Shown piece by piece: positions 10,053 through 58,819 of a DNA stretch of 64,000 nt (the stretch's first letter is position 1; each line of letters starts with the position of its first letter). The notes below the pieces were generated by a model. That model made no database searches and had not been told where the DNA came from. It was given only the letters and a program-made list of their open reading frames with translations. The DNA comes from Lasiodiplodia sp. COLG20. Its lineage: Eukaryota > Ascomycota > Dothideomycetes > Botryosphaeriales > Botryosphaeriaceae. Both the position numbers and the translations under genes were made by a program. The stretch covers positions 186,001 through 250,000 of the forward strand of contig VNWV01000002.1 in the NCBI GenBank assembly GCA_009801085.1, in the 5' to 3' direction.

Positions 10053-12905
10053 TTAGTACTTTAACATTGAGCGTAGGGGTAAGGGAGTAATCTCCGTTCG
10101 AAATTTCAAGTGCCCAGAGTTCACAGAAAGCCTCCACGTCTGGTATTTACTTCTGCGACGACATGAAAAAAGCGGAGGCAAGTCCCTAAAAATGGTACCA
10201 TCGGTGGTGTTTTGGATACACGGGGGAGTATCCAAGATATTCTGTAGTTCGGTGTTGGTTTTGCAAAGATCATAATTCATGTAGTGGCCCATCAGGAACC
10301 GGCCAGCATAGTCTAAGAGGTGAAAGTCACCATCAGATGAGCGATTTTTACTCTTAGCTATCTCTTGAACATCAGAGAGGTATAGGTAGTTGAAACAAGA
10401 GTAGGAAATTTGGAAATGTGCCCTCAGGGGAACCAACTCGGGCGCTTCGTTTGAGAATGTCGCAAGGCCGCCTTCCTGTAGGTACTCCCGGACTGACTGA
10501 TGAATTAGAATGACTGTTCCGGAATCTGCAACATCAGCGAGCCCTCTAGAGATGTTGCGGACCACTATGTGCATGTCTTCAAGATGGTAGCCGTCTGCTT
10601 TGAGATTTGAATGAGAAGCATCTTTCGTTTTGGCATCGATCATTAGAGCATCCCGAACCTCGAAATACGACAACGGCCTCTTGGCGAAAAGTATCCATTG
10701 AAAGAGCTTGGTCGTCTGGTGTTTCCTCGGCTTACTTCCCAGTTCCGTGCAGAGAAGGCGTTTGTATAGACCCTTCAAGTCGGCTGGCACGCTGTTCATT
10801 TCCTCGAGAATGGTCTTGAATCGATGTCTCCGGGCCTTCATCCGCTGAGCTTCCTGAAGAACGAGACTAACCCATTGAAGAATTCCATCTGCTCTTTTCA
10901 TAATGAGATTCTTGATAGCCTCTTTTTCTGAACTGCTGAAACAGTCGAGACTCCTATGGCATTCCACCACTGCTTCAACGTCGCACTTGTTACTCCGCTC
11001 GACGTAAATCGATTGTTTGTCCTGCTCCATGAGGATGGGGTAATAACGGCTGGAAAAGCAGATCCTGAAGCGCCGGGTAACACGCGAATCATGCAGATTG
11101 GCCACACACACTCGCTCCTGATCGTGGGTGATTGCCTTGAATTCGTGGATGACCCGTTCCGCCAGCCGCTCCCCCATCTCGTCCAGAGCGTCCACGAATA
11201 AAGTCAATTGTGGGCCTTTTCCTGTGATGGAAGTTCTGATCACTTCGTGGAAACATTTCGAGAGGTCCTTTTCGATCCATGTCCAATTCCCCTGTCGGCT
11301 GCCTTTCAGCTCCAGATAGACCTTGGTAAGAGAAGCTAATTCGCGAGGAAAACGGGGAAGTACTTGGTGCAGTAGATAACGGTACATCCCAATGGGGGAC
11401 TTCTGGATATCACTACCGCCTCCGTATATAAAGAACGCAAGGACAAGATCTTCCTTTCCCGAGTCATGCTTCATCTTCTCTACGACATGCCTCATCAAGG
11501 TGGACTTGCCAGATCCAGGTGGACCTAAAATTGTCAGAAGGCTCGAGTCGCGAGCTTTCCAGGCACGATATGGTTCGCAATTGAATATCCAATCGCACGT
11601 CCCTTTAGCCGCCTCGATCTCCTCCATATTTTCGCGAAAGTCTTGTTCTTTGAATGACAAACTCTGCAGACACTCTTTCTCAGAAGTTGAAAGTCGATGA
11701 CGGCTACTTGATAGTCGTGCGAGAATGTCATAGTACACAGGGTCCGAATTTCCAGCAAATTTGACAAGATCACTGTGGCCACGGTTGACTGGGATTTGTT
11801 CATCACGATCTGGATTCAACCCGTGTGTTGCAGACTGCTTGCTCACAAAGAGCTTTGGGGGGCCGCTCATAGTCCAAAGCCTGGTTTTCTCATCCTATTA
11901 TTGGCGTGTCAGTGCATCTGAGACCAGTTCAAACCCGAATGCGACTACCCCGTATCCGCTCATGAAGATACAATCCCATTCACTGGCCACTCCAAAAGAA
12001 CGTACCTGCACTGGTGTAGGAGACTCCCTTGTTTCGTAATAATGGAAGATTTTGAATGCATTGGTAGATCGTACGGACTTGAATGAGCTGTCAAGCGTTT
12101 CGAGATGTGGTGAATTGACATTGTGCAATGGGTATACCAGAGAATATGTCGCGCTTTCATCCATCATGGGAATCAGAGAGTCGATGTGCATTCCGTAACT
12201 CGGAACTCCGAAGAGGAGAACCCCAGTTGTTGACGCCAGATTCTCCTTGTCGGTCTCGTTCGCGCTTTTTTCCATCAATGTCATGGCGGTCTTAACGATG
12301 AGGCCTCCCAGACTGTGTCCAATGAAGACCAATTTTCTTGGACTGGACGAAGCGTTCACTGAGCGTAGGTTTCGGAGTCGGTAGAGGAGCGTATGTGCCA
12401 GGTCATTGACATTCTGAATCGATGGGTCTCTCGTGTCATAGCCGTAAATGAACACTCGAGCATTTAGGAAGTCGTGGGGCAAGCTGTCCCGCACCCACAT
12501 GTAAGGCCCGCCTTTTGACTTGAAAGAGCCAAACGCGTGACCATTCAGCCCACTAAGGGCAATAATGTCCATGTCGCAGTCGGTTTCCTCGGAGATGTGA
12601 AAAGGCGTAAAATCCTCGAAATGTTTGTCGAAAGTGATGTGTTGATCCGACCGTTCCCTCGTCATATACTCCCTGGGTAGTGGAATATTTGACTCTCTTT
12701 CATCTTCGAGTAGTTTAGGAATCGAGGAGAAGCTAATGGTGGCTACTAGCTGGTCATGGCGAATCGGATGGTGGGTAAGCGACTTCAGCTGAAAGGCGGA
12801 GTTGTCCACCTCAAGCGTGCGCGCAATACAGCTTTGCACTTGGTCTTTCGTCAGATCAACAGACAGGCCTTGCACGCGATATGCTGTTTCGGAATTCGCG
12901 ACCAT
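10053..12905 (-). CDS. NLR-type protein: lipase-like (SesB-type) + NACHT (complement join 10053..11894, 12006..12905)
   Basis: A 913-residue NOD-like receptor of the kind that mediates fungal heterokaryon incompatibility. Residues 1-100 form the usual N-terminal extension. Residues about 110-300 are an alpha/beta-hydrolase of the SesB type: LSGLNGHAFGS, MWVRDSLPHDF, YGYDT and the nucleophile elbow GHSLGG at 196-201. A 111-bp phase-0 intron (11895-12005, GTACGT...AATAATAG) joins ESPTPVQ to DEKTRLWTMSGPPK, giving the standard linker to the NACHT domain. Walker A GPPGSGKST is at about 424-432 and Walker B LTLFVDALDE at about 530-539, followed by an arm with winged-helix features. The chain stops shortly after NACHT with no WD40, ankyrin or TPR repeats, so it is either a short architecture or has lost its sensor region. 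Confidence 0.85.
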
Positions 12906-24791: not shown

Positions 24792-27080
24792 CTACAAAAG
24801 TGCTCCTTGCTTCATGCCCTTTGTCCATCGCTGTGGAGGCCTTGCCTGAGCTCCATATTCGTCACTAGTGATAGACTCCGTAGGAACCCAAACCGCAAAC
24901 ACGAAATAAGGTAGCAACTCTTCCCCATCGCCTACTGAGCCATCATCAACCTCCAAGCCCTCACCAGCCTCTGAAACTTCGTCAATACGAGAACCTTCAT
25001 CAGAATTTGAAATATTGTCAACGTCTACAATTTCGTCAACGTGTGGACCTTCATCAATTTCAAACCCTTCATGAACGTCTGAAACTTCATGAACGTCCGA
25101 ACCTTTGTCAACCTGTGGAAAAGGAAATGCCTCGTAAAGTAAAGTCCTATCAGGTCGGTTGCTGTCTGCCATAGAAATAGTGATATAATCACCTTTGTCG
25201 GCTTTTGCTCCGATTCCGATGCCTCCACTAGAGAATCCAACTCTTGGCTGCACATCATTGCCGTCACCTGGATGGAAGATCAGTTTAACACCCTTCTTCT
25301 CGCAGTATTCCACATCTAGCTCGAGCGCGGCGGCTACTATGCTATAGATAGCGTCGTGAATCTTATCTAAGTCAGAAGGGTCTATGTACGGCTCCAAGTG
25401 CTGGCGGTACGCATCCAGGATATTTCCGTCGACGCCATGGGTAACAAAGAAGTCCAAATACGGTCGAAGTGAGCGATACCGCCTTAGCTGACGTTTGGCG
25501 GTGGTGTCTTCCGGTGAGGTTTCGAACGTCAATGGGTCGGTCATAAACCTTTGCGTAAAGTCGGATCTGAATGCACCTAAAAGTGTTTGCCCTCTCCGAA
25601 TTTCCCAGTTCTTCATAGCCCCGTGCAATAGTTCGACCAATCGAGGGGTGATCTCCACGCCATATGATGCCCCCAAATATGAGTCATCGTTTTCGAGTTC
25701 GACCTCGTACATCTGAATTAGATCTTGGTAGTCAAATGCTTTCATGGAAAGAGCAGGTTGTTTGGTGTTGAAAATGCAAATTGGAACCAGGGTCGTGTTT
25801 TCCAACACATCGAATGTCCAGCCCTCACTTGCCAGAGTACGATAGACATCAATGTCAGCGGCTGGCACGACGCCAGATAGATAGTCTGCAGGCTTCCAAA
25901 GTGCTGATCCAAAACAAGGGGCACCAAAGAGACCTTGGGGGGCTGTAGTAGCGAATGCCATGTGGTGGTTCTTTTGAAATTGATCGATGGCGTCTTGTAG
26001 GAGGTCTGAAAACTCCATAGACTTGTAGTGATCCGGAATTTTGTATCCAGGGCAGGCAGTCCAAATCGAGATGACATAGTCCCTGGGTCGCGTCGCTTCA
26101 CGCCTGACTCGATAACGGTCTCGCATTATCCCTATTTCACCTTGTAGTCGGTGAATGAAATGAAAAACCTCTGTTAGGCTCTCAGTCGATTTTCCATTGC
26201 ATGCTTCCGCTCCCAGAAGGAAACGGAAGAAACTTTGTGTCATGCCCTGCAACCCCCCGTGATCTTGCGGCCCGAATAGGTAATAGATGTAATCTACCAA
26301 CATGACTGCTTCGGCCTGGTTCTTGTAATGCTCTGCACCCTTCTGAGCATAGGCCAAAGTATAATCCTCGTCCATGGAGCTATGACGTAGATGCTTATCG
26401 ATCATAAGCTTGCTGAAGGCAGGAACATCTTGCGGATCCCGAAATCCATCCTGGGTGGCGCATTTTCTCTTTTCCTTCGATGCCCAGACGCACCGGACTC
26501 TTTGAGAGAACATCAACTCCTGCCGAGGCCATAACCTTCGGACCCAAGAACTGACTCCCCAACCCAAGCATCCTTTCCGACCCGACGCGCACTCGTCGAG
26601 TTGTGTTTTGTATTTTGGATCGTCTGGTATCTTGCTAAGTTCGTCGAGGATTTCTGGAATGCAGCCGCAGGGGTTTCCGGGCATGAATATGACGACATCT
26701 AAGGTGCGGAAGATAGATGGGATGTCTGCAAGGGCCTTCGCAACCTGTTCCTCCTTTTGCGGCATACAAAGTTGGTCAATCCAGAGTGCCTTCTGATTTG
26801 ACAGCTCTGCTAGTCGTTCAACAACATCCTGTAGTGCCCATTCACTACCGAGCTCCATGCTGACTTCTCTTCCGTCGCAAAAATGTCCAATGAGTCTTCT
26901 TTGGCGATCGAACTCGCCCCACGCGTAGGATATGGCAATAGCATTATCTCGGTGTAGAGAGACATCATCGACACGAATGACCAGGTGCGGAGTTGTAGGA
27001 AAGGTGCAGGTGTCATCTTCACAGACTGTAAAGTGAGCAACGCGGGTGCTATTTACAAGGCTGGAAGCAATTTCTGCCAT
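24792..27080 (-). CDS. HET-domain protein with acidic C-terminal repeats
   Basis: A 762-residue, intron-free member of the heterokaryon-incompatibility (HET) family. The three HET blocks are present in the N-terminal 170 residues: AIAISYAWGEF, ALWIDQLCMPQKEEQ and the region of VVIFMPGNP...SWVRRLWPRQELMFSQ. HET domains are TIR-like death-inducing modules in fungal allorecognition. The middle (about 200-600) is unassigned. Residues about 655-720 form an acidic stretch of degenerate hexapeptide-like units (VDKGSDVHE, VSDVHEG, IDEGPHVDE, VDDGS). The start at 27080 matches the expected distance to the first HET block. No NACHT domain is linked in this gene. Confidence 0.88.
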   Translation of the reverse strand: MAEIASSLVNSTRVAHFTVCEDDTCTFPTTPHLVIRVDDVSLHRDNAIAISYAWGEFDRQRRLIGHFCDGREVSMELGSEWALQDVVERLAELSNQKALWIDQLCMPQKEEQVAKALADIPSIFRTLDVVIFMPGNPCGCIPEILDELSKIPDDPKYKTQLDECASGRKGCLGWGVSSWVRRLWPRQELMFSQRVRCVWASKEKRKCATQDGFRDPQDVPAFSKLMIDKHLRHSSMDEDYTLAYAQKGAEHYKNQAEAVMLVDYIYYLFGPQDHGGLQGMTQSFFRFLLGAEACNGKSTESLTEVFHFIHRLQGEIGIMRDRYRVRREATRPRDYVISIWTACPGYKIPDHYKSMEFSDLLQDAIDQFQKNHHMAFATTAPQGLFGAPCFGSALWKPADYLSGVVPAADIDVYRTLASEGWTFDVLENTTLVPICIFNTKQPALSMKAFDYQDLIQMYEVELENDDSYLGASYGVEITPRLVELLHGAMKNWEIRRGQTLLGAFRSDFTQRFMTDPLTFETSPEDTTAKRQLRRYRSLRPYLDFFVTHGVDGNILDAYRQHLEPYIDPSDLDKIHDAIYSIVAAALELDVEYCEKKGVKLIFHPGDGNDVQPRVGFSSGGIGIGAKADKGDYITISMADSNRPDRTLLYEAFPFPQVDKGSDVHEVSDVHEGFEIDEGPHVDEIVDVDNISNSDEGSRIDEVSEAGEGLEVDDGSVGDGEELLPYFVFAVWVPTESITSDEYGAQARPPQRWTKGMKQGALL
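24922..25116 (-). repeat. Degenerate in-frame repeats inside the HET gene
   Basis: Roughly 18-30-bp imperfect units of the type GTTGACGAAGGT/GATGAAG... encode alternating acidic phrases (DEGS, DVHE, IDE, VDEI). They look like decayed tandem duplications within the coding region and are a likely site of length variation between strains. Confidence 0.5.
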
Positions 27081-27690
27081 TTCAGAGAGGAGAGGGCGTA
27101 AAAAGCAATGTAGGAGTTGTTTTGATGAAGGTGGTTCTGGGTTTGCAACTATCAGGTTAATACTAATAGTGGTTCAGGCAGCAGCAACCCTTGTATGCGA
27201 ATACGTGTTCATGCATGATAGGAGCGCAAAAACTCAGCCTTAGGGCATGAAACTAGCTGCTGCCGCCTGGAGTAAGCCACAACTAGGAATACGAACGCGA
27301 GAGCGAGAACTCGCCCAGTTAAATTGTCTGCGCAGCATGAGATCCCCGCAACATACGAGGAGGGGCTTGTACGTCATGGGTCAGAGGCTGGTGCTACGTG
27401 TCAACCCCGCAGAGCCTTGACACTGTTTTGCACGTCGCAGTCGACAAGGCTTGCGGCTCTATCGAGGCTATTTCCGTACCCGAGAGTGGCAAAGTTGCAT
27501 GTTGAGATTTATATCCGTGAAAATGGTCATATACAGGTACTTAAGGAAGAGACAGCGCCTAGAGTGGTGCCTTTAAAATAGGGGATATGGGTAAAGCAAT
27601 GTATAATAAATATTTATTGTATGATATTGAGACCCTTTTGTTAATTAACAAATAGTATTAATCTCTACGGGATACATAACTAAGTATATT

Positions 27691-31827: not shown

Positions 31828-32523
31828 CTACCCACGGGTTTGGCTACTAAAACTAAAAGTATCTATGACGAACCCAACTCTCTCTTCCAAACTCGTCAGC
31901 CCTCCAGGTAAAACTGTAAACTCAATGGCTTGCTTCTCTAGCACCTTGGAGAACTCATAACTAAATCTTTCCCACTCTTCAGCCCCTCCGTACTTTAGTC
32001 TCACATCATCATCATTTAGCCACTCTTCATTTCCAGGCGTGCAAAGGATAACCGTCGATTTCCGCATCCATTCCCGCAAGCAAACCCATTCTAGTAATGA
32101 TAACAGCTTCTCTACTAAATAATTTCCCAAATAAACTTGTGCATACACGATAGAATCGATCCCGCTACGGTCGGATATGTACTAGCGATCGCGGAGGGTT
32201 TCCTCGGCCTTGTATTAGACCATCAGTATGCTTTTCTGAAGCGCAATGCCCCTCTCTAGATCCATGACGTCTGCCGAGTTGAAACCGTTGTCGTGCATGA
32301 CTTGTGTGGCTGCCTCTCGGATGAAGGCGGGTACGTCGGTATAGTAAGGGATTCCATCCCGTTCCTTAGCGTTCGAAAAGTATTCTTGTAGCGCTTCAAG
32401 CAGTGTTGTTTTTCCGGTACACTACGCCCCGACAAGGTAGATATTTGAAAGCTTCATGTATGGTTCGCTGGGGATGGCGTTTAGGTGTTTTAAGTGCTTC
32501 AGATTTCCTCGCGTCCTCTTCAT
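31828..32523 (-). pseudogene. AAA_28 (NadR/TTD14-like) P-loop ATPase with three nonsense codons
   Basis: One continuous 232-codon frame from ATG 32523 to the terminal stop at 31828 reads as a P-loop ATPase of the AAA_28 family. It has NIYLVGA-stop-CTGKTTLLEAL (Walker A; Gln expected at the stop), FIREAATQV, LERGIALQ, YISDRSGIDSIVYA (Walker-B-like/ISDR block) and VLPGGLTSLEERVGFV near the end. Internal stops are TAG at 32424-32422, TAA at 32217-32215 and TAG at 32184-32182. The first two stand where Gln is likely; the third precedes YISDR, where Trp is usual. No indel interrupts the frame. In animals the same domain is fused to CYTH in TTD14; here a CYTH gene lies immediately upstream in the same direction. 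Confidence 0.8.
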
Positions 32524-33820: not shown

Positions 33821-34586
33821 CTAGCCTTTCCAGCCGCCGAAGTGGTACAATGTTTCTGACAGCCTTTGATAGGAAACTTCGACCTCCCTGCTTGTATCCA
33901 GCTGCAAATCTGTTCAGCTGCAAAAAAAAACAAAGAAACCGAATGAGGTGCACACTGTAGCTACGAACCTTGAGTAGAATGCCCCTTGACTCATAGAACC
34001 CAACTATCTGAGGATTGAGTTCAGTAAACTCTTTGTATCTTCTGTCGAATAATTCTTTATTGTCCTCGCGACCGGGAATTTTCCTAACCAAAAATCTATT
34101 TTCCGCGACTTCTTTGCGGCAGTCGAAGAATAACACTAAACTGGGCGGACCCATCTGCATCTAGTGAGTAAAAAATAATAAATGGCTGTTTGAGGTATAT
34201 AGAGACTCACCAAAGCCTCAAATGCGACCGCCTGATCTACCCTTCTCGGGAAACCATCCAAAATAAACTTATGATTTCCTTGACTTCTGAATCCTTCTAT
34301 TTCTTTCATCATGATCGGCTGCAGTGCCTCCATTGATAAAAGTTCGTTCTTCCGGATGCTGTCGATGGTAGCCTGGTCCATAGCTGCGTGATCATCGGAC
34401 ATAACTTTTCTTAGAAGATCTCCAATAGACAAATGAACGAAGCCGTGATCTTGTGCTAGCCTTTCGCACAAGGTCCCCTTGCCAGAGGCCGGTGCACCTG
34501 TATCCGATGAATTAAAGACTAAACATCTAGGAAATTGACTTACCTATGACGTACACAAACGTACATGAGTCGCGTTCATTAGTCAT
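33821..34586 (-). CDS. UMP-CMP/adenylate-kinase-family NMP kinase (complement join 33821..33901, 33969..34160, 34211..34497, 34544..34586)
   Basis: A 200-residue kinase, normal length for eukaryotic UMP-CMP kinases. P-loop GAPASGKGT is split by the first intron (34498-34543). Then come HLSIGDLLR, the NMP-binding region, FILDGFPRR and FFDCRKEVAENRFLVR, a short LID with GREDNKELFDRRYKEF typical of the UMP-CMP group, and the C-terminal GILLKLDTSREVEVSYQRLSETL. Introns are 46, 50 and 67 bp. The last acceptor (TTTGCAG before CTGGATAC) is chosen because it yields the family ending; an earlier CAG gives an unrelated tail. It would phosphorylate CMP/UMP (possibly AMP). It is transcribed away from viperin with 172 bp between the two ATGs. 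All key motifs are intact. Confidence 0.9.
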
Positions 34587-34758
34587 TGAAATTGTTGATG
34601 AACTGTAGTGGCGATTTGGAAGAGGACTTTTAGAAAAGTGAACACGACCAAGCAGACTGCATATATATATATATATATATATACCCACACACACACAACG
34701 CAACATAACCTTCGTCTTCCCACCACTTCAATACTTGATCTATTACGTCTTGATAGTT
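34587..34758. promoter_or_regulatory. Shared divergent promoter of the NMP kinase and viperin genes
   Basis: Only 172 bp separate the two start codons, so both genes must use this short region. It contains a TA dinucleotide tract at 34661-34684, about 75-98 bp before the viperin ATG, that can serve as TATA element in both directions, followed by a CA-rich leader. Co-expression is an inference from the arrangement. Confidence 0.65.
34661..34684 (+). repeat. TA dinucleotide microsatellite in the viperin promoter
   Basis: About 11-12 consecutive AT/TA units. Being in the core promoter, length changes could alter expression of viperin and the kinase. Confidence 0.8.
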
Positions 34759-35724
34759 ATGGCTCTTGTTCTCTCCCTTCTTTTCTCATTGGCAGCCTTC
34801 CTCACTGTTCTGCTACGGAAAGTAGTGTCCAACCATCGCCACAAGCATCCCATATCCGTAAACTACCATTTCACCCGTCGATGCAACAAGTCGTGTGGAT
34901 TTTGCTTCCATACAGCTACGACTTCCTACAAAGAAAGTACAGAACGTGCCAAGGAGGGCCTTCGCTTGCTTCAGATCTCCGGGATGCGAAAGCTCAACTT
35001 TGCGGGTGGCGAGCCCTTTCTGTACCAGAAGTTTCTGGGCGAAATGGTCAAATTCTGTAAAGAGGAGCTCAAGCTTGAGTCTGTATCGATTGTCACGAAC
35101 GGCAGCCTCGTCACCGAACGATTTCTCGCGAAGTTTGGACAACACATCGACATTCTGGCTGTCTCTTGCGATTCTTTTAAGGAATCAACGAACATTGAGA
35201 TCGGCCGCGGCTCCGGAAATCAAGTAGGCCAGCTTTACCGAATCCGAAACTGGTGCTCCCGGTACAACATCAAGTTCAAAATCAACACGGTGGTTTGCAA
35301 GCTCAACTACACCGAAGATATGAACTCTCACATCGAGAAACTGAGGCCGTTCCGGTGGAAATGCTTCCAGGTTCTCTTGGTATCGGGGGAAAACGAATCG
35401 GCTGAAAGAATTCGCGATGTACGACGCTTTTTGATTACCGACGAGGAATTTCGGGTGTTTTGCGAGACGCACAAATGTCAAAAATGCTTTGTGCCGGAGT
35501 CGAACCAAGTCATGGCCAAATCATATCTCATTCTGGACGAATATCTCAGATTTTTGGACCGCGACGGCCGACAACCTTCTGCGTCTATTTTAGAGGTGGG
35601 TGTTGAGAAAGCGCTCGCTAGTGTCTACTGGGATGAGAAGAGTTTTCATGCACGAGGGGGGGTATATGACTGGAGTAGGGAGCTACAGCCGGCTTCACAA
35701 TCTATCGCTGCGATGGATTGGTAG
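34759..35724 (+). CDS. Viperin-like radical SAM enzyme (RSAD2 homologue)
   Basis: A 321-residue intron-free protein with the full viperin layout. Residues 1-22 are a hydrophobic/amphipathic N-terminal helix (MALVLSLLFSLAAFLTVLL), as in ER- and lipid-droplet-bound viperins. The radical SAM cluster motif CNKSCGFC has Cys at 42, 46 and 49. GGEP (83-86) binds SAM. Viperin-specific blocks follow: VSCDSF, IGRGSGNQV, FKINTVV, RPFRWKCFQVLLVSGEN, FVPESNQ, SYLILDEY and the C-terminal AMDW. Viperins convert CTP (or UTP/GTP in some lineages) to 3'-deoxy-3',4'-didehydro nucleotides that stop viral polymerases. The terminal MDW resembles the C-terminal tripeptide recognised by the cytosolic Fe-S targeting complex (CIAO1). 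ATG 34759 is the first in frame; upstream TTG is not a likely start. The NMP kinase is head to head with it. Confidence 0.95.
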   Translation: MALVLSLLFSLAAFLTVLLRKVVSNHRHKHPISVNYHFTRRCNKSCGFCFHTATTSYKESTERAKEGLRLLQISGMRKLNFAGGEPFLYQKFLGEMVKFCKEELKLESVSIVTNGSLVTERFLAKFGQHIDILAVSCDSFKESTNIEIGRGSGNQVGQLYRIRNWCSRYNIKFKINTVVCKLNYTEDMNSHIEKLRPFRWKCFQVLLVSGENESAERIRDVRRFLITDEEFRVFCETHKCQKCFVPESNQVMAKSYLILDEYLRFLDRDGRQPSASILEVGVEKALASVYWDEKSFHARGGVYDWSRELQPASQSIAAMDW

Positions 35725-43597: not shown

Positions 43598-44191
43598 ATT
43601 GTAGGACCGGCTCGAAATTAAGGCTATGAGGGACGGAGTTGTACGCGGTTAAGGTTGTACGTAGCCTAATGTCTATTCATTTATTTGCGTTAAGAAAGCA
43701 GCCGTGATACGTAGCATTGTGGAAGTTGACTGTGGTTGACTTCCACGTCGGTGCTTTGCGGCGGTCGGGATAACGCGCGCATGAGTGAACGATTTATTGC
43801 GCTGCATTATTGTGGCTGCGGGTGGCGTTGTTTCTGGGTAATGGCAGATCCTGTCACACTCGAATTCGGCGTGTCGGCGCAGCACGTATGGCGCTCGCTC
43901 AGCCAGCCACAGCGGCAAGGCAACAGCATTTTCCCCCGCTTTCATGCCTGTTCGGCTTGGTCACATGCTGCACAGAAAAGCTTATCTTTCTTTTGTACTG
44001 CTAAAATATCTTATTTCTCGCCGTTTAAGCTGCTTTATCACGACCTTTCATAAAACTTTTTTGGGCCTCAAATTATTACGTTAAGCAACCTTATCGTCCA
44101 TTCTTGGGCTGTGTGATCAACAATACCTGAGCGATGTTTAGTCTGGAAAGCTGAGGCCGATTTTAAGTTTCTCAAAACCATCGAAGCAGCC
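43598..44191. other. Intergenic, upstream of the second HET gene
   Basis: About 590 bp with short frames only. The last 150 bp are AT-rich and likely promoter. Confidence 0.4.
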
Positions 44192-46213
44192 ATGTCGACC
44201 TCACCAGCCTGTCCTGCTTTGCCAGGTACCATCCACACATCCGAGCAGGCCTACAAATATTCACACCTCAACCTTTCCCGCCGAGAGATACGGCTGCTTT
44301 TGCTCCTTCCCGGCCAGCTTTCCGACGAGATCATTTGCGAACTGGCTGAATTCTCGCTGTTCGAGGAGCCCAAGTACGAAGCACTGTCGTACGTTTGGGG
44401 AGACCTATCCAATCCCCACCACATCACCCTCGACAAGACCGACTTCTACGTCACAGCCAACCTCTACACAGCGCTTCAGTTTCTCCGGAAGCCCGACGCG
44501 GCGCGGACCCTGTGGATCGACGCGCTTTGCATTAATCAGGAATGCGTCCCGGAACGAGAGTACCAAGTCGGACTCATGCATTCCATATTCTCAGGTGCAG
44601 AGATGGTGCTGGCTTGGCTGGGACATCCGAGCGACGACGGCATCGTCAACCCGACAGGACACGCCATTGAGGTTGGCGATGCGTTAGACATAGCCACCCG
44701 TGAAGGGTCTAACCTGGATGCGGGATCGACGGAGTCTTATCCGCTGCATAGTCGCTTTAGTGGGCCCAAGAGATTGGAAGTAGAAAAGATTTTGGCATGC
44801 TTCGCTTTTCTCCGCTTGATGAAAGAGGGATGTCGGCATCCAGCTGATCTGCCATTCTTCGAGACGGAGGATGAAGCGAATTTCCAGAAGATCAGAGTAG
44901 ACCGCCGGTTGGAAGACGCGTTCTATGCATTCCAAACAATCGTGGAAAGCGCATGGTGGGACCGGATGTGGACTGTCCAAGAAGCACTGGTCGCCAAGAA
45001 GATGTGGTTGATCCATTTCCACCTGATAATACCCTTCGACAACCTTCTTAGGCAGGTGAATATTCTGAACAATCATGCGTTGACTTGCTGTTCACCTCAC
45101 CTTAATAGTCTTCCACGGGACCAGTTCTACGTGTTCTGGAGATTGCTCAGCAAGGTTATGCAGCTCAAGCAGGAATGGATGGGAAACAGGTGGGAATCGT
45201 TCACCCGGCCGAGTCTCGCCAATCTTCTCAAGAAGTTCCGTCTTCGGGAGGCAACCGACGAACGAGACAAGATAAATGCGCTCCTTGGGCTGAGCATATG
45301 GAACCAAGCTCAACCCATAGCACCCAGCTACTCCATTGGCTTCGCACAGACCTACATCAACGCGACGATGAAGTTGATTGAAGAAGAGAAGTCTCTCGAT
45401 GTCCTCGAGGGCCATTCTCGTCGTTCGCACTACCAAGAGCTATTACCATCCTGGGTTCCAGACTGGACGCGACCGGATAGGAATCACCTTGATATGCACG
45501 CCTATCTGTACAATGCCGGGGATGGCTTGTCCAAAGCCGAGCTTTGCTGCAATTCAGCCCTCATGGTCCGTGGGGTTGAATTCGACACAGTCACGTCTGT
45601 GGGAGAATCTTGCGACTGCGATGACGAGGAGCAGGTTTGGCTTGTCATCAGGGGGTGGGCAAGGATGCTTGTCGGCGACCCTTTCGCTTATGAAGCTTAC
45701 TCCACCGGCCAATCCCAATCAGATGCCTTCAAAAGCACCATGAGCGGTGATGTGGTCCGCCGAACCGCCAGTGAGGAGGATGGCCTGCCTTATGACTACG
45801 CCCGAGCTGGGGACATTTTCGACCGAAGATTACGTGGTGAGGAGGATGAGGGCGACGATGATTTTTGCTGGTACTACGACTCAACAGATGAGTCAAAAAC
45901 GGAGTGGATGCAGCACGTCTTCGATGTAGTTATACCAAAAATTGTTCAAACCCGGTTTTTCCTTACTAAGCATGGATTCATGGGCATTGGACCGTCGGAA
46001 ACCGCGGTCGGGGACAAGGTGTTCGTCCTACGTGGTGGGAGGATTCCATTCATTCTACGCCGTGGCGACGAACAAGAGCATCGGCAAAAAGACTGCTACC
46101 ATCCACCTGAACTCTGGTTTCGAGTGGTCGGGCGAAGCTATGTTCACGGCATTATGGATGGTCAAGCCCTGAAGTGTGACAAGAAGGTAGAGCAAGATGT
46201 CCATTTATATTAA
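44192..46213 (+). CDS. HET-domain protein
   Basis: A 673-residue intron-free protein of the canonical long HET family. After a start MSTSPACPALPG come REIRLLLLLPG, YEALSYVWGD (HET block 1), LWIDALCINQECVPEREYQVGLMHSIFSGAEMVLAWLG (block 2) and, after a spacer, WWDRMWTVQEALVAK (block 3). The C-terminal part has the usual HET-family features: LRLMKEG, FRLREATDERDKINALLGL, LPSWVPDW, and the closing GDKVFVLRGGRIPFILRR...WFRVVGRSYVHGIMDGQAL. HET proteins trigger cell death on recognition of non-self. All motifs and length are normal, so it appears functional. Confidence 0.93.
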   Translation: MSTSPACPALPGTIHTSEQAYKYSHLNLSRREIRLLLLLPGQLSDEIICELAEFSLFEEPKYEALSYVWGDLSNPHHITLDKTDFYVTANLYTALQFLRKPDAARTLWIDALCINQECVPEREYQVGLMHSIFSGAEMVLAWLGHPSDDGIVNPTGHAIEVGDALDIATREGSNLDAGSTESYPLHSRFSGPKRLEVEKILACFAFLRLMKEGCRHPADLPFFETEDEANFQKIRVDRRLEDAFYAFQTIVESAWWDRMWTVQEALVAKKMWLIHFHLIIPFDNLLRQVNILNNHALTCCSPHLNSLPRDQFYVFWRLLSKVMQLKQEWMGNRWESFTRPSLANLLKKFRLREATDERDKINALLGLSIWNQAQPIAPSYSIGFAQTYINATMKLIEEEKSLDVLEGHSRRSHYQELLPSWVPDWTRPDRNHLDMHAYLYNAGDGLSKAELCCNSALMVRGVEFDTVTSVGESCDCDDEEQVWLVIRGWARMLVGDPFAYEAYSTGQSQSDAFKSTMSGDVVRRTASEEDGLPYDYARAGDIFDRRLRGEEDEGDDDFCWYYDSTDESKTEWMQHVFDVVIPKIVQTRFFLTKHGFMGIGPSETAVGDKVFVLRGGRIPFILRRGDEQEHRQKDCYHPPELWFRVVGRSYVHGIMDGQALKCDKKVEQDVHLY

Positions 46214-46638: not shown

Positions 46639-49600
46639 CTAATCCACCTGCGCAAACCCCCACATCACCCTAATCCCATTAATCCAATCCTTAATCGCCA
46701 GCACTTCGTCGCCCACCCGCACGAAACCCTCTGGCACACCTCCCGCCGCCTCATTGGCCGCCGCAATGTCAGTCCACTTGGGAACGTGCAGGAAAGTGTG
46801 GTCGCGGCCGCAGATCTGGCGCTCGAGTGTGCCGACCCGCAGCTTGTCGACGCAGCCAGCGCAGAACTGCACGTCGATGCAGTCCTTGCACACGTAGATG
46901 TCGTCCGCGTACGCTCACTGTTTGTTGCAATTCCCATCGCATGTATTTCCCAGTGGGTCGTTGAGGGGAGGTGATGATGGCTCTTCGTCGCCGGCGATGG
47001 CAGCGGCTGCTGTGCCATTTTCCGACGAGGTCGGTGTGGCTTGCTTTCCATCATCAGTGGAAGATTTTGGGCCAGCGACGTCCACATCGGAGGTGCTGAT
47101 GGACTGCAGCGGTTCAGTGCCGGCTGTTGCTTCCTCTGCCCCGTCGTTCTTGCTATCGCTTTGTCCCGCGTGCTCCTCAACGCCCTTATCTTGTTCAACT
47201 GTTTCCCCTCCCTGATCCCCTCTTTCCCCTCCACCCTTGTCCTTACCACTTCCCTCCTCGTCGCCCTTCTTCTCCTCCTCCACCACCGACGGCCTGATAA
47301 GCCCCCAAGCCGCCAGCGCATTCACGTCATCGTCCAGCGGTCCCAGCGTCTCGCCCAGCATCAGATAAGCGTACGCGTCGTTCCCCGGGTCGTCGTCATC
47401 CAGCAGATTAAGCACGACGCGCACATGGGCCCGCACCGCCTCGCGTGCCTCGCTCTCCCTGCCACCTAGGTGCAGGAGGCGGCCTAACACCAGGCTGGTC
47501 TCGATCAACCCCTCCCCATCACTGCTCGCCTGCGCATCGACGAGTGCGCGGAGCTTCTTCGTCCACTGGTCCAAGTCGGGGCTGCGGAAACCGGCAGATT
47601 TGGCATAGTGGAGGTAGAGGCTGGACAGGGCGCGGGCGCTCAAGCAGAGCGTCCAGGAGTAGGTGGCGGGCGACTTCAGCTTGTTGGGTAGGAGGTTGCA
47701 TTCGAGCAGTTCGACGGCCTTTTTGGTGTCTGCATCGTCGTCGCCGACGTTCTGGTGGCTGCCGTGGTGCAAAAGGGTGCGAGCGTAGTAGTAGCGTAGG
47801 GCGGTGAGTATGCTGAAGCGGGTAGTTTTGCCTTCGTTAGGTGAGGAAGAAGTGATGGTGGAGGAAGGGGATGGTAGTGCTTCGGTGGCGGCGATGGCGT
47901 CACAGAAGGCCTTGTGTACGACTACCGTACTATTGGTGGCGCGTGCAGCGCGCGCCACACGGCAGTGGAAGTCGAAGGAGGAGTTGAAGTCGTCGACTTC
48001 GTCGAAGCAGGCCAAGGCATGGTAGAGAGCGGTGAGCTTGGTGAGGCCGCCGCTCTCGTTGTCGTTGTCCTCTTCTTGCTCCTCCTCCACCTGACTTTTG
48101 TTGTTATTGTTGCCGTTTTGCTGCTTCTGCCTCTCTATAGGCCGTCGCGTACCCAGCCGCTCGAGCAGAGTGATGACGACACGGAAGTTGCCGCGCTCAT
48201 CGAGGCGCTCGACCATGGTCGTGATGAACTTGTAGTCGTTTGGGAACTCGCTAAGTAGCCCCCAAGATGCCTCAATACTTGCTTCATGGTTATCAAGGTA
48301 GTGATGCGCGTCCGCGATAGTGCGCAGTACCTCCCTCCATGAACAAGCGAACTCCTTTTTCAGACTCTTGCTAGCGCGGAAACGTGCTGCAAGGGCCAAC
48401 GCCGTCTGCAGGCAGGCCTCATACTCCTGCTGGCCCCGCTGAATCTTCGTGTGCAGCAAGTCGACCATCTAGTTGTCCGAGTCCATCGAGCGCGCGAGGC
48501 ACCATCTTTCGAGGGCTTCGGCCTGGTGGCCGAAGTGGCTCAGTGTCCACGCCACGCGGACGACCCACTGAATGTCTGGCTCATCGACGAAGAGCTCCTT
48601 CTTGGCCCACTTCTCGGCTGCGTAGATCATGCCGGTGGGTATCTTAAGATGTTCTATGTCCTCAGTAACCCGTTTCATGCTGCTGCTACGGTTCTCGATC
48701 TACCAAAAGTGTCAGTCATAGTTGGCATAAAAGGGGCAACAATTGACCTTACCTTGGTAACAAAGGCATATACCCAGTAGAAGTGGTTGAAAAATGGCCA
48801 CTTAAACGACTGCAGCCAGCTTCTAGCCATGACGCGCGTAATGCGCTTAAACAGGTCCTCCTCAGGCTTGGATTTGGACGAAAGGTCATTGATCCAGCGC
48901 TTGTCGCCGTCGGAGAGGTGTTCGACGACGACCGGGTCCTTGAACCACCTCAGTACGGCATCCTCGAAATCATTTCGGTAGCCCACGTAATAACGCATCC
49001 ACCTGCCAAGCTGCGCATCGGTCCACCACGTCTTGATACACGTCTCGTCAGTGAATAGTTGAAGCAACAGCGTTCCGATTTCCTGCTTGGCTTTGTGCTC
49101 GGCGTGCGCTAGGTCGACTTCGTTGAGGTGGTAATCCAAGGAGTAGATAACGTATCCATGCAGCGGCTTGGCTTTGTCCCTGTCGTCGCCGCAGACGGCC
49201 TTCAAGCTCGTGAGCAGAATCCTCACGTGCCCATTGGGCGCTTGAAAGTCTATTTTGGGTGCCTTTTTCCCCAGCTTGCGCTCGAAAAGGTCCTCGAAAC
49301 CGAATTTAGCAAAGAGCTTGTCGTCGCAGACTTGCTTGAGGAAACGCCTCACGATTTCCACCTCGGACTTATGCAGCTTTGTTGAGTCGCCCTCACTGTC
49401 CGCGTCCTCTTCCCCCGTCTCTTGCTGCTCGCTCTTCAAGTCCACGATAGACCACAGCGTGGAATTTGCCATAACAGAACTATTCTCGTCAATATACAGC
49501 AGCAAGGAGTATTTTTCATCAATCTGCTCTTTCAGTGTTACGAGAGAATCCTCGCGGCTTGCCGAATTCTTCAGGAACAGCACGGTCTCCATCTGCTTCA

Positions 49601-51577
49601 CTGAGAAGCGGCTGACGCCGAGAGTCACCCACACGAGCAGTTCGTTTAGGTCCTCAACATCCTGGTGGTCGAGCTGCGCGTTAAGCTCCTTGATCTGTGT
49701 GCGCAGCGCGTCTTTCGGGTCTTTGCTAGCGCTTTCCAGCGTCGCCTCGATCTCATTGCGTCGATGCTTCTTACCGATCTCTTCCAAGATCGATTTGAGC
49801 TTGAGGTAGTCGCCGCCCGCGATCTCGAGCAGCTTATCACGGATTTTGGCGCGCAAGTCGTTGTGCGTGTCCAGCGCCGACATCCCGTCTAGCTGTTTAT
49901 TGATGAATTGAACAATGTCGTCGCGGTTCACCTGTCCCAGCTCCACTCTATGGATGATAATTCCACTTTCTTTGGTCAGCTCGGAGAAGTCCTTTTCCCG
50001 GCCGGTGAGAAAGAGCCGGATGCGCAAGCGAGAACTGGCCTCCTTAGTCATAGTTGCGATGTCTTGCAGTATCTTGACAAGCGGCTCTGTCTTTCCCGCC
50101 TCATTCTTGGCTATGTCGATGCCGTCGAGGATGATGAAGAAGGTAGCGTTCGTCTTTGAATAGTCCCGGATTGTCTTCTGCCAAAGCTGCATCGTGTTGC
50201 TGCTGAAACTCTCGGAGCTCTCTCCCACGCCCGCCACGAACTTTTGGTACGCAGTGTCATTCTTGCTGAGCTGCCACACAATCTTTTGCAGTACGTTGTT
50301 CATCGAGAGATTATCTTCACGGGAGCTTCGGTCTTCTTTAAAGAAGAAAAAGGCGACGCACACCCGGTCAGTTTGATTTCCATCCTTAAAGGTGTCTTTC
50401 AGGTGCTCAATGACTTTGGCGCACAGTATACTTTTGCCGAAACCCTTGCCGGCTTCAAGAGCGAACACCGGGTTAGTGTCATGGGCCTCGTTGGTGGCTT
50501 TCCAGGCAGTGAACTGCTCATCCTCAAACAGCCACCTGCCCGTATTCTCCACGGCAGTCCTGAGAGAGTCATTCTGATGGTCACGCCAGGGTTCTTCGCC
50601 TTCCTTAATGTTGAGAAGCTCCTGAGCCTTCTTTCGGGTCTTCTTCATAAAGCTCTCCTCCTCCTTGCGCTTCTCGGCTTTGTGAAGTGCCTCAACTTTA
50701 GCTTCCGCATTCTGCAAGACCACATTGACCTTCTTCAAGCCGGACGTCATATCGATTCCGTTGCTCTGGGCAGTTTCGAGTGTGAGTGAAACAGTATGAT
50801 TGATGTTGTCGAGCTTGGCATCAGCGATGTGTGCAAAGCCCTTGAGCTCGGTGATTCCGGCTGCGGTCCTGGCTCCGCTGTTCTGGGTCTCTTCCAGAGT
50901 CAAAGCTATAGCCATTCTCGTCTCTTCCTCGACTAGAACCTGGAGACTGGCCATCGCAGCGCTCACTCCCTGATCGCTCCCGAAAGCAAATGCCGACAGG
51001 GCAGCCCGGATCTTTCCTTTTGTCGAAGCAAGCTTGGTGGAGATGGCGCAGATCTCGACAAATTTGCGTAGTAGCTTGTGGATAATGAGTTTGAGGTGTG
51101 TATCGATATTCATGCCGGTCGCCTTTGGCCGCGCGTACACCTCAAAGCGGTGTAGGAAGCCATAAATCTTCTCGAACAAATCGCCGAGCCCTGAGAAGAT
51201 CTTCTCGTACTTTTGCGCCGTGTCTATGAGGAAAGAAGCTGCGTTGAAGCACAGCTGCGCTGGCCCGAACGCCTGCATTTACCGTTAGTTAAAATCAGTC
51301 GCGGAAGGCTCAGCATTACACTAACCATTGTTACACCTTGGACGGCAATTGATCCCAGTGTCGAAATGCATTTCAAGCTGTTGCGGAGGTATTCCTTGGA
51401 TTTCTTCCATTTCTGTTTTTCCTTGTCGTCCACTTTGTCCTCTTTGATGTTCGCTAGAAGGTTTTCAGCTTCCAAAGACACATTTTCCTTGAGATCTCGC
51501 CCGGTTATCGTCGTGTACTCAGCCGCAGTTTCATTCCACATTCTCTGGAAGTCTTCGTCGACTCCCGCAGCTGCCAT
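46639..51577 (-). pseudogene. Goodbye-domain STAND NTPase with TPR-like region and Cys-rich C-terminus; two in-frame stops (complement join 46639..48699, 48753..51272, 51326..51577)
   Basis: Three exons joined by 53-bp introns (51273-51325 and 48700-48752) give one frame of 1611 codons. Exon 1 (84 codons) is a fungal STAND N-terminal Goodbye domain (DEDFQRMWNETAAEYTTITGRDL). Exon 2 has amphipathic helices, then the P-loop ALEAGKGFGKSILC (about residues 358-365 for GKGFGKS) and Walker B FFIILDGID, followed by the STAND arm. Exon 3 is helical and TPR-like, then a disordered acidic linker and a Cys-rich end: CDGNCNKQ-stop-AYADDIYVCKDCIDVQFCAGCVDKLR. Internal stops are TAG at 48471-48469 (after SMDSDN) and TGA at 46917-46915, where Trp is expected between NKQ and AYADD. 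With only these two transitions and no indel, the gene is either recently inactivated or rescued at RNA level. As read, the product ends at SMDSDN after about 994 residues. Confidence 0.8.
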
Positions 51578-54278: not shown

Positions 54279-56517
54279 CTATGGAATAACCTCTGTGAAT
54301 TCAGGTTTTGGGCTCTTCCTGGCAGAAATGGGCCGCTGAGTAACCTCCCGCATATGCTCCCTCGACTTTGGAGTAACTCTTCTGGTCTCAGGTTTTGAGC
54401 TTTCCGTCATAGGTATAGGCCACTGAATAGGGTCTGAAATGTCCTTTGAGAGCTCAGGCAGCTGCGGACAAGGTTCAATGTTTTCCGTGTGACGCGCCTC
54501 GAATTCAGCTGCTGCCGAGCGCACCCCACTACCAGCCCAGTGAACCTTCAGCCCTGCGGAGCTTTCAAACGCAGCAATGAACCGGCTGCTTGAGATCGGG
54601 TCTAAAGCAACAGCCTAAGCAATTTTAGTATCTGGAAAGGCGATCTGCGGGCTTTCTTACCTGGATTCTCCGATTTTCCTTCCTGTAGCTCCGAAGGAAC
54701 GGCTCGAGCTCACTGTAAATTCCACGGAGGTTCCAATAGAAGCGACCATCAGACATTACCATAATATACGCACCTCCCTTTCCGAGTGTCAGCTGGCTGA
54801 CTGTTTTGTGTGCGTATCGATTTAGTAACAAGGAAATCGTGCGACTTGATGAGTAAAGAGGATGAAGGTCCCACAAGCACCGATGTTCAAACCGGGCGAA
54901 ATACGTATAGTCAGGACCGAGAGAAAGATAACGGAGCTGGCCGTATCTTTGGAGTAGGATAACTGCCCAAAGCTCTGGGTTATAACCACTTTCATCAGCG
55001 ATCGAGCCACCTACTAAACAGTTAGACAACATATCCCATGCGAAGTTCAGGAGGATCGGAAACACCGGAATAATATCTTCGCCCTTGCCCTGTCCAAGCC
55101 GCAATCACCCAATGGTCATAAGGGCCAAGCGCAATTATTTTTAACATCCTCTTATCAAACGACGTCAGGCAGGCATCATTTTTGACCTTATTGCCTATCT
55201 CCCTTTTCACACGTTGATAAATTAGCATTGGCACTATCTGGATAGAAAAAAAAAAAGGAATCAGAAGCTTCAACTTACACCACAGCATCCCCTTTTCCTT
55301 TGAGAAATATGTTCGCTTTGCCACATACGGAAAAGAAAAAGCTCGTTGGCGGTGCGTCTTCGAAGGGAGAGACATATTGGGGCTCGTAAACCCTCACATG
55401 CCGCTTGTACCTTTCCAGGACCGGTCTCTCTAGCATTGACTCCATTGTTCTAGTAGCTTCTTTGAGGCGCTTTTCCAAGCGTGCGACCCGTTGCCAGTGA
55501 AGGTTTTCCATGTCGTCTTTCATCAATTGCCTTTCCGCTTCGATCTTTTCCAATCGTGTACCCTGCTCCTTTTTTAATGCTTCAATCTGTGCGGCAGTAG
55601 CATAGTCTTTATCTTTGAACGCTCTTAGCATCTGCTCTCGCATCTCTTCGACCGCCCTTCTCGTTTTTGCTTGCTCTTGCCTCAAGTCTTCGTTGATTGC
55701 TTGGCCTGCGTCTGTGTCCAGCAGGACTTTCTTCTCATCGACCATCTCCTGTTGCAGCTTAACCGTCATACGCGTCGAATTTCTTACGTACTTTCTGATC
55801 AAGGCTCTTGCTGATGTCGCAACATTGAGATATCTTGCTACGGTGCTCCCTCCTTTCACCATATCGCCCCAAAATTCAGGTGTCTCTTTCAACTCAGTCT
55901 CACGCGCTACTCCAGTTGTGAGATCAACCTTGTCCCACATTGACGTGGCCAAGGTCACTCCTTTTAGAGCTTCGGCGCCACATAGCTTGTAGAAAAGATG
56001 AAGATTCCGCTTTGCCGACCCTTGCATGCGGACACCAGTTATGGGATGCATGTAGATGAGTCCACTGAGCATGACGTGTTCCTGATCATATGAGCGTGCC
56101 AGCCAAGCGGCAATCTCTCGAAGAACGTCGGTATCTGTATAGTCGGCATCATCGAAACCCGGCGTATCGATAAGATAGACAGTGGTTGTAGGATTGTAGT
56201 CGAAGGCGAACGATTCGACGACGCGTGTGCCTGTGGTATGGAATGTTAGCCGCATTATCACAATGCCATCTCTGTCACTTACATGATTTTAGTGTATGCC
56301 CAACAATTGCACTTCCTCCACAACAATTTGCGATAAACGTGCTTTTTCCAGATCCAGTCATCCCCATGACGGCTATGAAGATGTCGGTTTCTCTGATCAA
56401 CTGTCAGCAAATTCTCCAACAACAGCGTGTTAGACCTTCTACAGACCTTGGCTTCCTCCCTTCCCTACACCAGGAATCATCGTTTGTGGCATTCGATCGA
56501 GCTGGAATGGGTTCCAT
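54279..56517 (-). CDS. GIMAP/AIG1-like GTPase with coiled coil and a C-terminal beta-rich repeat domain (six exons)
   Basis: Complement join 54279..54614, 54661..55010, 55066..55237, 55281..56230, 56283..56400, 56443..56517; 666 residues. G1 GMTGSGKST is at 38-46, G3 DTPGFDD begins at Asp86, and G4-like TSMWDKVD follows. The region about 200-310 is a coiled coil (EEMREQMLRAF...ALKKEQGTRLEKIEAERQLM). The C-terminal 250 residues repeat a fungal motif of the form LGPYDHWVIAAWTGQ / LGPDYTYFARFEH / LGKGGAYIMVMSDG, each followed by a Trp/Tyr-rich strand. Five introns of 42-55 bp all have GT-AG ends; the intron after LKSC is in the same position and phase as in the neighbouring plus-strand GTPase. 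The first intron (42 bp) and the GTGTAA donor at 55280 are less certain. Such septin/AIG-like GTPases assemble on membranes in immune contexts elsewhere; the role here is unknown. Confidence 0.82.
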
Positions 56518-57393: not shown

Positions 57394-58819
57394 ATGCCAG
57401 CAAACTCGACCTTTGCCGATAGGAATGATCTGCTTGAACAGGAAACTAACCTTTTACGGTTCCTTGGCGCAGAGCCTCCCTTGCCAAATTCGATGTTCAT
57501 TATTGTGCTTGGAAACACAGGCACGGGAAAAAGCAGGTTGGTTTCGACTTGCTCCGGAAAGCACCTGAAAATCGGACATGACTTGAAATCTTGTAGGTGA
57601 CTTTTATCTCAGCCCGCTACTACTGAAAGTTGTTCCTGACTAAGTCCTTTTGGAATTCGTAGGCACTGAAGACATAGCTATTGTGGCTTTCGAATTATGC
57701 CAATTAAACGTCTACCTCATCGATACACCAGGCTTTGACGACACTTCGCGGCCGGACGTCGACACGCTCCGCACCATCTCAAGCTACCTTGCCATTTCCC
57801 ATGCCAACAACGTCTTCCTATCCGCGGTCGTAGTGCTGCACCGGATTTCCGATAACCGGATATCCCGGTCCGCTAAGCGCGGGATAGATATACTCAAAGC
57901 TCTCTGTGGCAATAAAGCATATTCTTCCGTGGCCTTGGTGACTACGATGTGGTCAAAGGAGGATCGACACCAGCAGAAAGACAGAGAAAGAGAACTATAC
58001 AGCGATCAGGCCCTTTTCGCGGAGTTCATCGCTGGGGGCGCGCAAACATTTCGACACAATGAATATGCAGGCGGTCCTGCGGAAGAGAAGGAATCTGCAC
58101 TCGGCATACTGTACAGGATCATCAGCAAAGCTCGAGGCGAGCGGATGACGCTGGAGATCCAGCGGGAACTCGCAATACAAGAATTGCCGCTCCACGAAAC
58201 AAAAGCCGGCGGCGTAATCGCGTCGCATCTCGCGCAAACCGAGGGATCTTTGAAGCGGGAGGGTGAGACGTTGGATCATGAGGCTTCTCAAATGTCGGCT
58301 CAAGAACTCGAGGAGACAGAAGTGCATGTTTTGGTCCGTGAGAATCTCCAACGGATGATGTCGTGCCGCAACCAGCAAGAAACCCTTCAGCGTTCCCTGA
58401 TGGACTTCCATGACGAGGAGCGGGCTAAGATACTCCGGCGCCTGGATGCCATGGATGAGAATCTCGATTCGATGCTCAATGAATGCCGTCAGAGACTGCA
58501 AGACATGGAAGCCAGCGCTGAATTTGACATCCAGCGAGGGGAGAGCGGCAACAGGCCGCGGGCTGGATCCGACACCGGGGACGATGATGAAATTTTTCTA
58601 CTCCACCAAAAGGTTCAAGAACTTGAGAAGCGGCAGCGACTCAAGAAGAAGAGTCGAAGAAAAATTAGAGATGCGGTATTTGCGGGCATGGCAAGCGGAA
58701 CACTATCTGCAGCCGCTGGAGCCGGTAAGTTCCCAACACCATGTGCAGGCATTCAAGCCTTAACTGACAATCTCTTTCCAGCGCTCACGGCAGCAGGTGT
58801 GGGGTGTGTAGTCTTTTAA
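57394..58819 (+). CDS. GIMAP/AIG1-like GTPase (join 57394..57592, 57663..58724, 58782..58819)
   Basis: A 432-residue paralogue of the GTPase at 54279-56517. G1 GNTGTGKSR is at 40-48; the SC...C intron (57593-57662) is at the same place and phase as in the partner; G3 DTPGFDD begins at Asp87; G4-like TTMWSKED follows. A long coiled coil follows (about 190-380: LAQTEGSLKREGETLDHEASQM, VQELEKRQRLKKKSRRK). The last 57-bp intron (58725-58781, GTAAGT...TTTCCAG) is a multiple of three and open, but splicing gives a small hydrophobic Ala/Gly C-terminus (SGTLSAAAGAALTAAGVGCVVF), a likely membrane-insertion tail. It lacks the beta-rich repeat domain of its partner. Key P-loop residues are intact. Confidence 0.87.

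Follow-up and report, generated by a model that had tools for sequence, protein, structure and literature searches.

A divergent viperin and nucleoside monophosphate kinase gene pair in Lasiodiplodia as a candidate two-gene antiviral module of filamentous ascomycetes

The window analyzed here, a stretch of 64,000 nucleotides from contig VNWV01000002.1 of Lasiodiplodia sp. COLG20, carries a viperin gene (34759..35724, + strand) and, divergent from it, a gene for a nucleoside monophosphate (NMP) kinase of the ADK family, referred to as K1 (33821..34586, − strand). The viperin gene is a single exon with an intact reading frame from the ATG at 34759 to the TAG at 35724, and it encodes a radical SAM protein of 321 amino acids with a hydrophobic N-terminus. 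The initial annotation had called this viperin complete, which is borne out by the presence of CNKSCGFC (the radical SAM CxxxCxxC motif), GGEP and the C-terminal MDW, and by a score above the cut-off of the NCBIfam model NF038283 'viperin family' (251 bits; cut-off 180). The protein does not reach the cut-off of TIGR04278 'viperin' (386.8 bits; cut-off 450). Its closest PDB relative is 6b4c (residues 30-308 aligned with 9-287 of 6b4c, E 2e-132), which we take to be the Trichoderma virens viperin; in the literature 6B4C is linked with either Trichoderma virens or mouse.

K1 has four exons with predicted splice sites (34586-34544, 34497-34211, 34160-33969 and 33901-33821, − strand), giving a protein of 200 amino acids. 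The last exon is backed by a Melanomma homolog (P0145), which matches at 49% over 192 aligned positions, tail included. The two start codons are separated by 172 bp (34587..34758) that include an AT/CA microsatellite, and this region presumably acts as the promoter. The divergent arrangement and its spacing had been annotated exactly to the base, down to the kinase stop at 33821. With PF00406 (ADK superfamily; cut-off 26.8) K1 scores 102 bits and its counterpart K2, described below, 67 bits, whereas neither matches PF02223, the family of thymidylate kinases that includes CMPK2, at E 0.001; some relatives of K1 carry a precomputed PF02223 tag alongside PF00406. The initial annotation was thus right to place the kinase outside the thymidylate-kinase family. 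It had also described a complete UMP-CMP-family kinase; the gene is indeed intact and its product belongs to the adenylate/UMP-CMP superfamily, but 'UMP-CMP kinase' is too narrow a label, because the K1 relative P0145 falls below the curated cut-offs both of TIGR01359 (UMP-CMP kinase; 141 bits, cut-off 207.6) and of TIGR01360 (AK1; 144.8 bits, cut-off 284.1). For the same reason, the fungal kinase family is best named as a separate subfamily.

A search of the 43.5-Mb genome returned two viperins, the window copy and one on another contig (C8) that is 52-58% identical to it (58% over the matched part). The C8 viperin is likewise divergent from an ADK-family kinase gene, K2, with 360 bp between the start codons; both viperins found in this genome are thus paired divergently with kinases of one and the same clade. 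K1 and K2 share only 30% identity, K2 being very divergent, and together with the 52% identity of the viperins this implies that a duplication of the pair, if it was a single event, is old. Two introns are common to K1 and K2, one in phase 1 within the P-loop glycine and one in phase 0 before the last strand, and K1 has one intron more. Three further ADK genes were found, encoding Ura6 (on C23) and adenylate kinases (on C1 and C88), and all three lie away from the eight radical SAM matches in the genome; the local Ura6 gene is uninterrupted at both of the common intron sites.

The initial annotation had proposed that related genomes with the two genes unlinked would speak against a functional pair. 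Because the searches carry no gene context, linkage was scored by whether the same length was printed for the longest contig of the viperin cluster and of the kinase cluster. The viperin list comprised the best 120 of 1944 matches (48 named species) and the kinase list included the best 120 of 7902 (53 species), with one row per species; the 28 and 33 species present in one list only carry no meaning, since the lists are the best 120 of much larger sets. Twenty species were common to both lists, and four of them (Parastagonospora nodorum, Ophidiomyces ophidiicola, Trichoderma viride and T. virens) were set aside on account of differing strains or pan-genome clusters. In 15 of the 16 assemblies compared, viperin and kinase lie on a contig of identical length; the lone exception is Phaeosphaeriaceae sp. 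PMI808, whose listed viperin and kinase are on different contigs. This result does not refute the proposed pairing. If position in a genome of an assumed 40 Mb is taken as random, each species has a chance between 0.0002 and 0.14 of showing a common contig; multiplied across all 15 species, this comes to about 10^-34, although the species are not independent. Given the second pair in the Lasiodiplodia genome and this linkage, the divergent viperin-kinase pair is confirmed as real and beyond chance. Among the rows without a species name that were compared, no contig of identical length joined a viperin and a kinase.

The closeness of the two genes varies among the linked species. The two genes bear consecutive locus tags in Xylographa trunciseda, X. 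pallens and Neofusicoccum ribis, and the contigs of Glonium and Periconia are just 8.4 and 8.3 kb long. The strongest case for tight linkage therefore comes from the Dothideomycetes (Glonium, Neofusicoccum) and the Lecanoromycetes (Xylographa). In Eurotiomycetes (Aspergillus, contigs of 103-374 kb) and in Podospora fimiseda, the only Sordariomycete among the linked species, the evidence for linkage is the common contig. In five of the 15 species with linkage, P. fimiseda included, that contig measures 0.76-5.4 Mb, which indicates co-location and not adjacency itself. Divergent orientation was seen in both Lasiodiplodia pairs, the other species being represented by contigs and locus tags only. 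Viperin and kinase distances correlate (r 0.86 over 17 pairs; 0.81 over 16 pairs without the C8 pair), and 0 of 5000 permutations gave a value as high, with or without C8. As species history alone would yield such co-divergence, the correlation shows common inheritance and not interaction.

A tree of 67 rows separates K1, K2 and 50 further proteins (47 from named fungi and three others) from all 15 remaining rows, which comprise Ura6, UMP-CMP-type proteins, human AK1 and adenylate kinases, with a support of 100/99; the split from rows of other named groups holds in 200 of 200 bootstrap trees. Within the clade, the Neofusicoccum kinase comes out as the sister of K1 (96/95), and K2 forms a long branch of unsure placement. 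The residue after GKGT is L in 50 family rows and I in one, as against Q or E in eight outgroup rows. Another difference concerns the position that follows the Ser of HLSxGD and presumably lines the base pocket: 50 of the 51 family rows carry V, I or L there, the two Ura6 rows A and adenylate kinases mostly T. The exceptions are P0238 in the family, with A, and P0013, a Ura6-like row of the outgroup, with I. Apart from a T in P0207 and an N at the lid GR position of K2, the NMP and lid arginines are retained throughout the family, and K1 keeps all its catalytic arginines. The Gln of Ura6 and AK1 is present in 51 of 51 family rows, so the sequence is compatible with a preference for UMP, CMP or AMP. 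A structure model of P0145 (pLDDT 93.4) has yeast Ura6 as its best match, tied with AK1-type chains.

About 1.4 kb downstream of K1 lies a decaying AAA_28 (PF13521) gene with three in-frame stop codons (31828..32457, −). AAA_28 is a P-loop family with nucleoside-kinase relatives, and the gene is, tentatively, a possible third component of the module. A viperin gene model of Alternaria panax (P0038) ends in an AAA_28 piece (residues about 317-405), which suggests that an AAA_28 gene probably adjoins viperin in that species as well. The other AAA_28 match of the Lasiodiplodia genome, on C19, is stop-free across the matched stretch. Also in the window are two genes with HET domains and two of the NPHP3_N/NACHT STAND type, one of the latter with a Goodbye domain (24795-27173, −; 44117-46210, +; 48678-51278, −; 10056-11894, −), and a HET gene is found near the C8 pair too. 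Such genes are very numerous genome-wide (150 scored HET matches of 429 candidates; 155 NPHP3_N matches from 222 candidates), and although the window exceeds the approximately 0.6 HET and 0.3 NPHP3_N candidates expected per 64 kb, the excess is too small to support a defense-island reading, which was set aside. Two GTPase-like open frames with the motif YLIDTPGFDD (55275-56288, −; 57644-58819, +) have no Pfam match at E 0.001.

The pair is probably best understood as a two-gene module conserved among filamentous ascomycetes, in which viperin produces ddh-nucleotides, a dedicated NMP kinase supplies the pyrimidine nucleotides and the outcome is antiviral. Viperin would make 3'-deoxy-3',4'-didehydro pyrimidine nucleotides (ddhCTP and perhaps ddhUTP), and these would terminate viral RNA chains. 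For one fungal viperin, UTP is reported besides CTP as a putative substrate (PMC8124187). The divergent gene would encode a fungal NMP kinase that is expressed together with viperin and simultaneously boosts the supply of pyrimidine diphosphates and triphosphates, in the way that CMPK2 does for RSAD2. We infer co-expression of the two genes, a pyrimidine preference of the kinase, a flow of product between the enzymes and a role of the pair against mycoviruses; the initial annotation had likewise proposed that the kinase supplies CTP/UTP for ddhNTP synthesis in an antiviral module.

The main rival to a supply of substrate is salvage, in which the kinase would act after viperin, either re-phosphorylating ddh-nucleoside monophosphates and so rebuilding the pool of terminators, or handling ddh-nucleotides in a way that protects the host. 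A presumed base pocket altered in nearly the whole family (V, I or L in place of the A of Ura6 and the usual T of adenylate kinases) would suit a modified nucleotide, and a neighboring AAA_28 gene would suit a salvage chain. However, the Ura6-like row P0013 has I at the same position while standing outside the family, the AAA_28 gene is broken in the window, and its linkage is seen in two genomes. Salvage by the kinase is considered unlikely. A module that is real yet serves another end, with ddh-nucleotides or ddh-nucleosides acting, for example, as a secreted antimicrobial or in the internal control of RNA polymerase or mitochondria, is less probable again. Alternate reactivities of fungal viperins have been reported, with isopentenyl pyrophosphate and UTP among the substrates tried (PMC8124187), no title or abstract in the literature searched ties a fungal viperin to a mycovirus, and in one mycovirus paper viperin is confined to the reference list. 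Against this, the literature presents viperins as proteins of innate immunity with a virus-restricting role (PMC10732462), and the absence of fungal data is no evidence against an antiviral role.

That a housekeeping UMP kinase came to lie beside viperin by chance is very improbable indeed. The ADK fold of the kinase is ordinary and one of the 16 assemblies has the genes unlinked, but this reading is contradicted by the separate Ura6 on C23, by the second pair on C8, by the linkage in the other 15 assemblies and by the 100/99 split of the kinase clade from Ura6. Returning to the antiviral module, a broader version of it is offered as a tentative possibility: an ascomycete system that evolved independently of those in animals and bacteria and relies on a novel kinase subfamily, the base pocket being specialized for the pathway (for pyrimidine or ddh-nucleotide monophosphates). 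Such a system would be old enough to span several classes, would occur as two copies in one genome and would, in some lineages, have gained an AAA_28 P-loop enzyme for combined supply and salvage of ddh-nucleosides. If so, viperin and nucleotide kinases have come together on at least two occasions, involving different kinase families, and the partnership would look like something that ddh-nucleotide immunity generally requires and not like an accident of vertebrate gene order. Moulds would then have a defined candidate for nucleotide-based antiviral immunity, and the substrate of the kinase would tell whether the partners of viperin feed its substrate or rescue its product. No earlier description of a fungal viperin-kinase pair was found among the papers listed from the mainly open-access literature searched, including passages of PMC10732462, PMC8124187, PMC5850085, PMC11249213, PMC8801973, PMC12926258, PMC10058120 and PMC10089162, and an earlier description is possible.

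Prokaryotic viperins (pVips) resemble the fungal pair in having nucleotide kinases as neighbors, and PADLOC holds models for viperins 'associated with kinases' and for fusions; the window viperin scores 231 bits with the model 'not associated with kinases' vs 211 bits with 'associated with kinases'. According to the literature, 15% of bacterial viperin genes adjoin a CMPK2-like kinase gene (PMC11249213). Our own scan used fungal motifs and so reaches few prokaryotic viperins: of 31 loci, the 16 that match over at least 200 residues (L023-L037 and L041) were kept, and open frames of at least 90 codons in flanks of up to 4 kb, some shortened by contig ends, were searched with the ADK profile and a P-loop pattern, which can miss kinases. 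An adjacent kinase was found at two of the 16, and both are of thymidylate-kinase type (Thymidylate_kin, PF02223), in Candidatus Uabimicrobium amorphum (L024:4838-5434) and Vibrio fujianensis (L033:5174-5791). No ADK-type kinase gene was found within these flanks at any of the 16 loci; at E ≤1, the ADK profile returned only one large NTPase (L024) and the thymidylate kinase of L033. With none of the 16 loci having an adjacent ADK-type gene and two having the thymidylate-kinase type, inheritance of the pairing from prokaryotes was rejected. Among IMG/VR contigs filed as viral, 11 viperin-type loci were seen, three of which (L054-L056, on short contigs) align with the window viperin over most of its length at 32-33% identity.

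The characterized fungal viperins of Trichoderma virens and Thielavia terrestris are like the window protein in the viperin itself, 6b4c being the closest solved structure, and differ in that the available passages describing them mention no kinase partner. Yeast Ura6 has the same fold and catalytic arginines as the kinase of the fungal pair, but reads GKGTQC and has A after the Ser of HLSxGD where the pair-kinase family reads GKGTLC and has V/I/L, and the local Ura6 lacks introns at two places where the window kinase has them. The nearest parallel in arrangement is the vertebrate RSAD2-CMPK2 pair, although CMPK2 belongs to the thymidylate-kinase family and the fungal kinase to the ADK family. 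In line with the initial annotation, the CMPK2 gene of animals lies next to RSAD2 in inverted orientation, a viperin gene thus adjoining and diverging from an NMP kinase gene as in the fungus, and CMPK2 raises ddhCTP (PMC10058120). The initial annotation had further suggested that the fungal pairing arose independently of the vertebrate one, and the match of its kinase to PF00406, with none to PF02223, supports this. The kinases at the two prokaryotic loci are of thymidylate-kinase type and those of the fungal clade are ADK, so fungi appear, judging from these sequences, to have assembled their viperin-kinase module from a kinase family other than that used by animals and bacteria.
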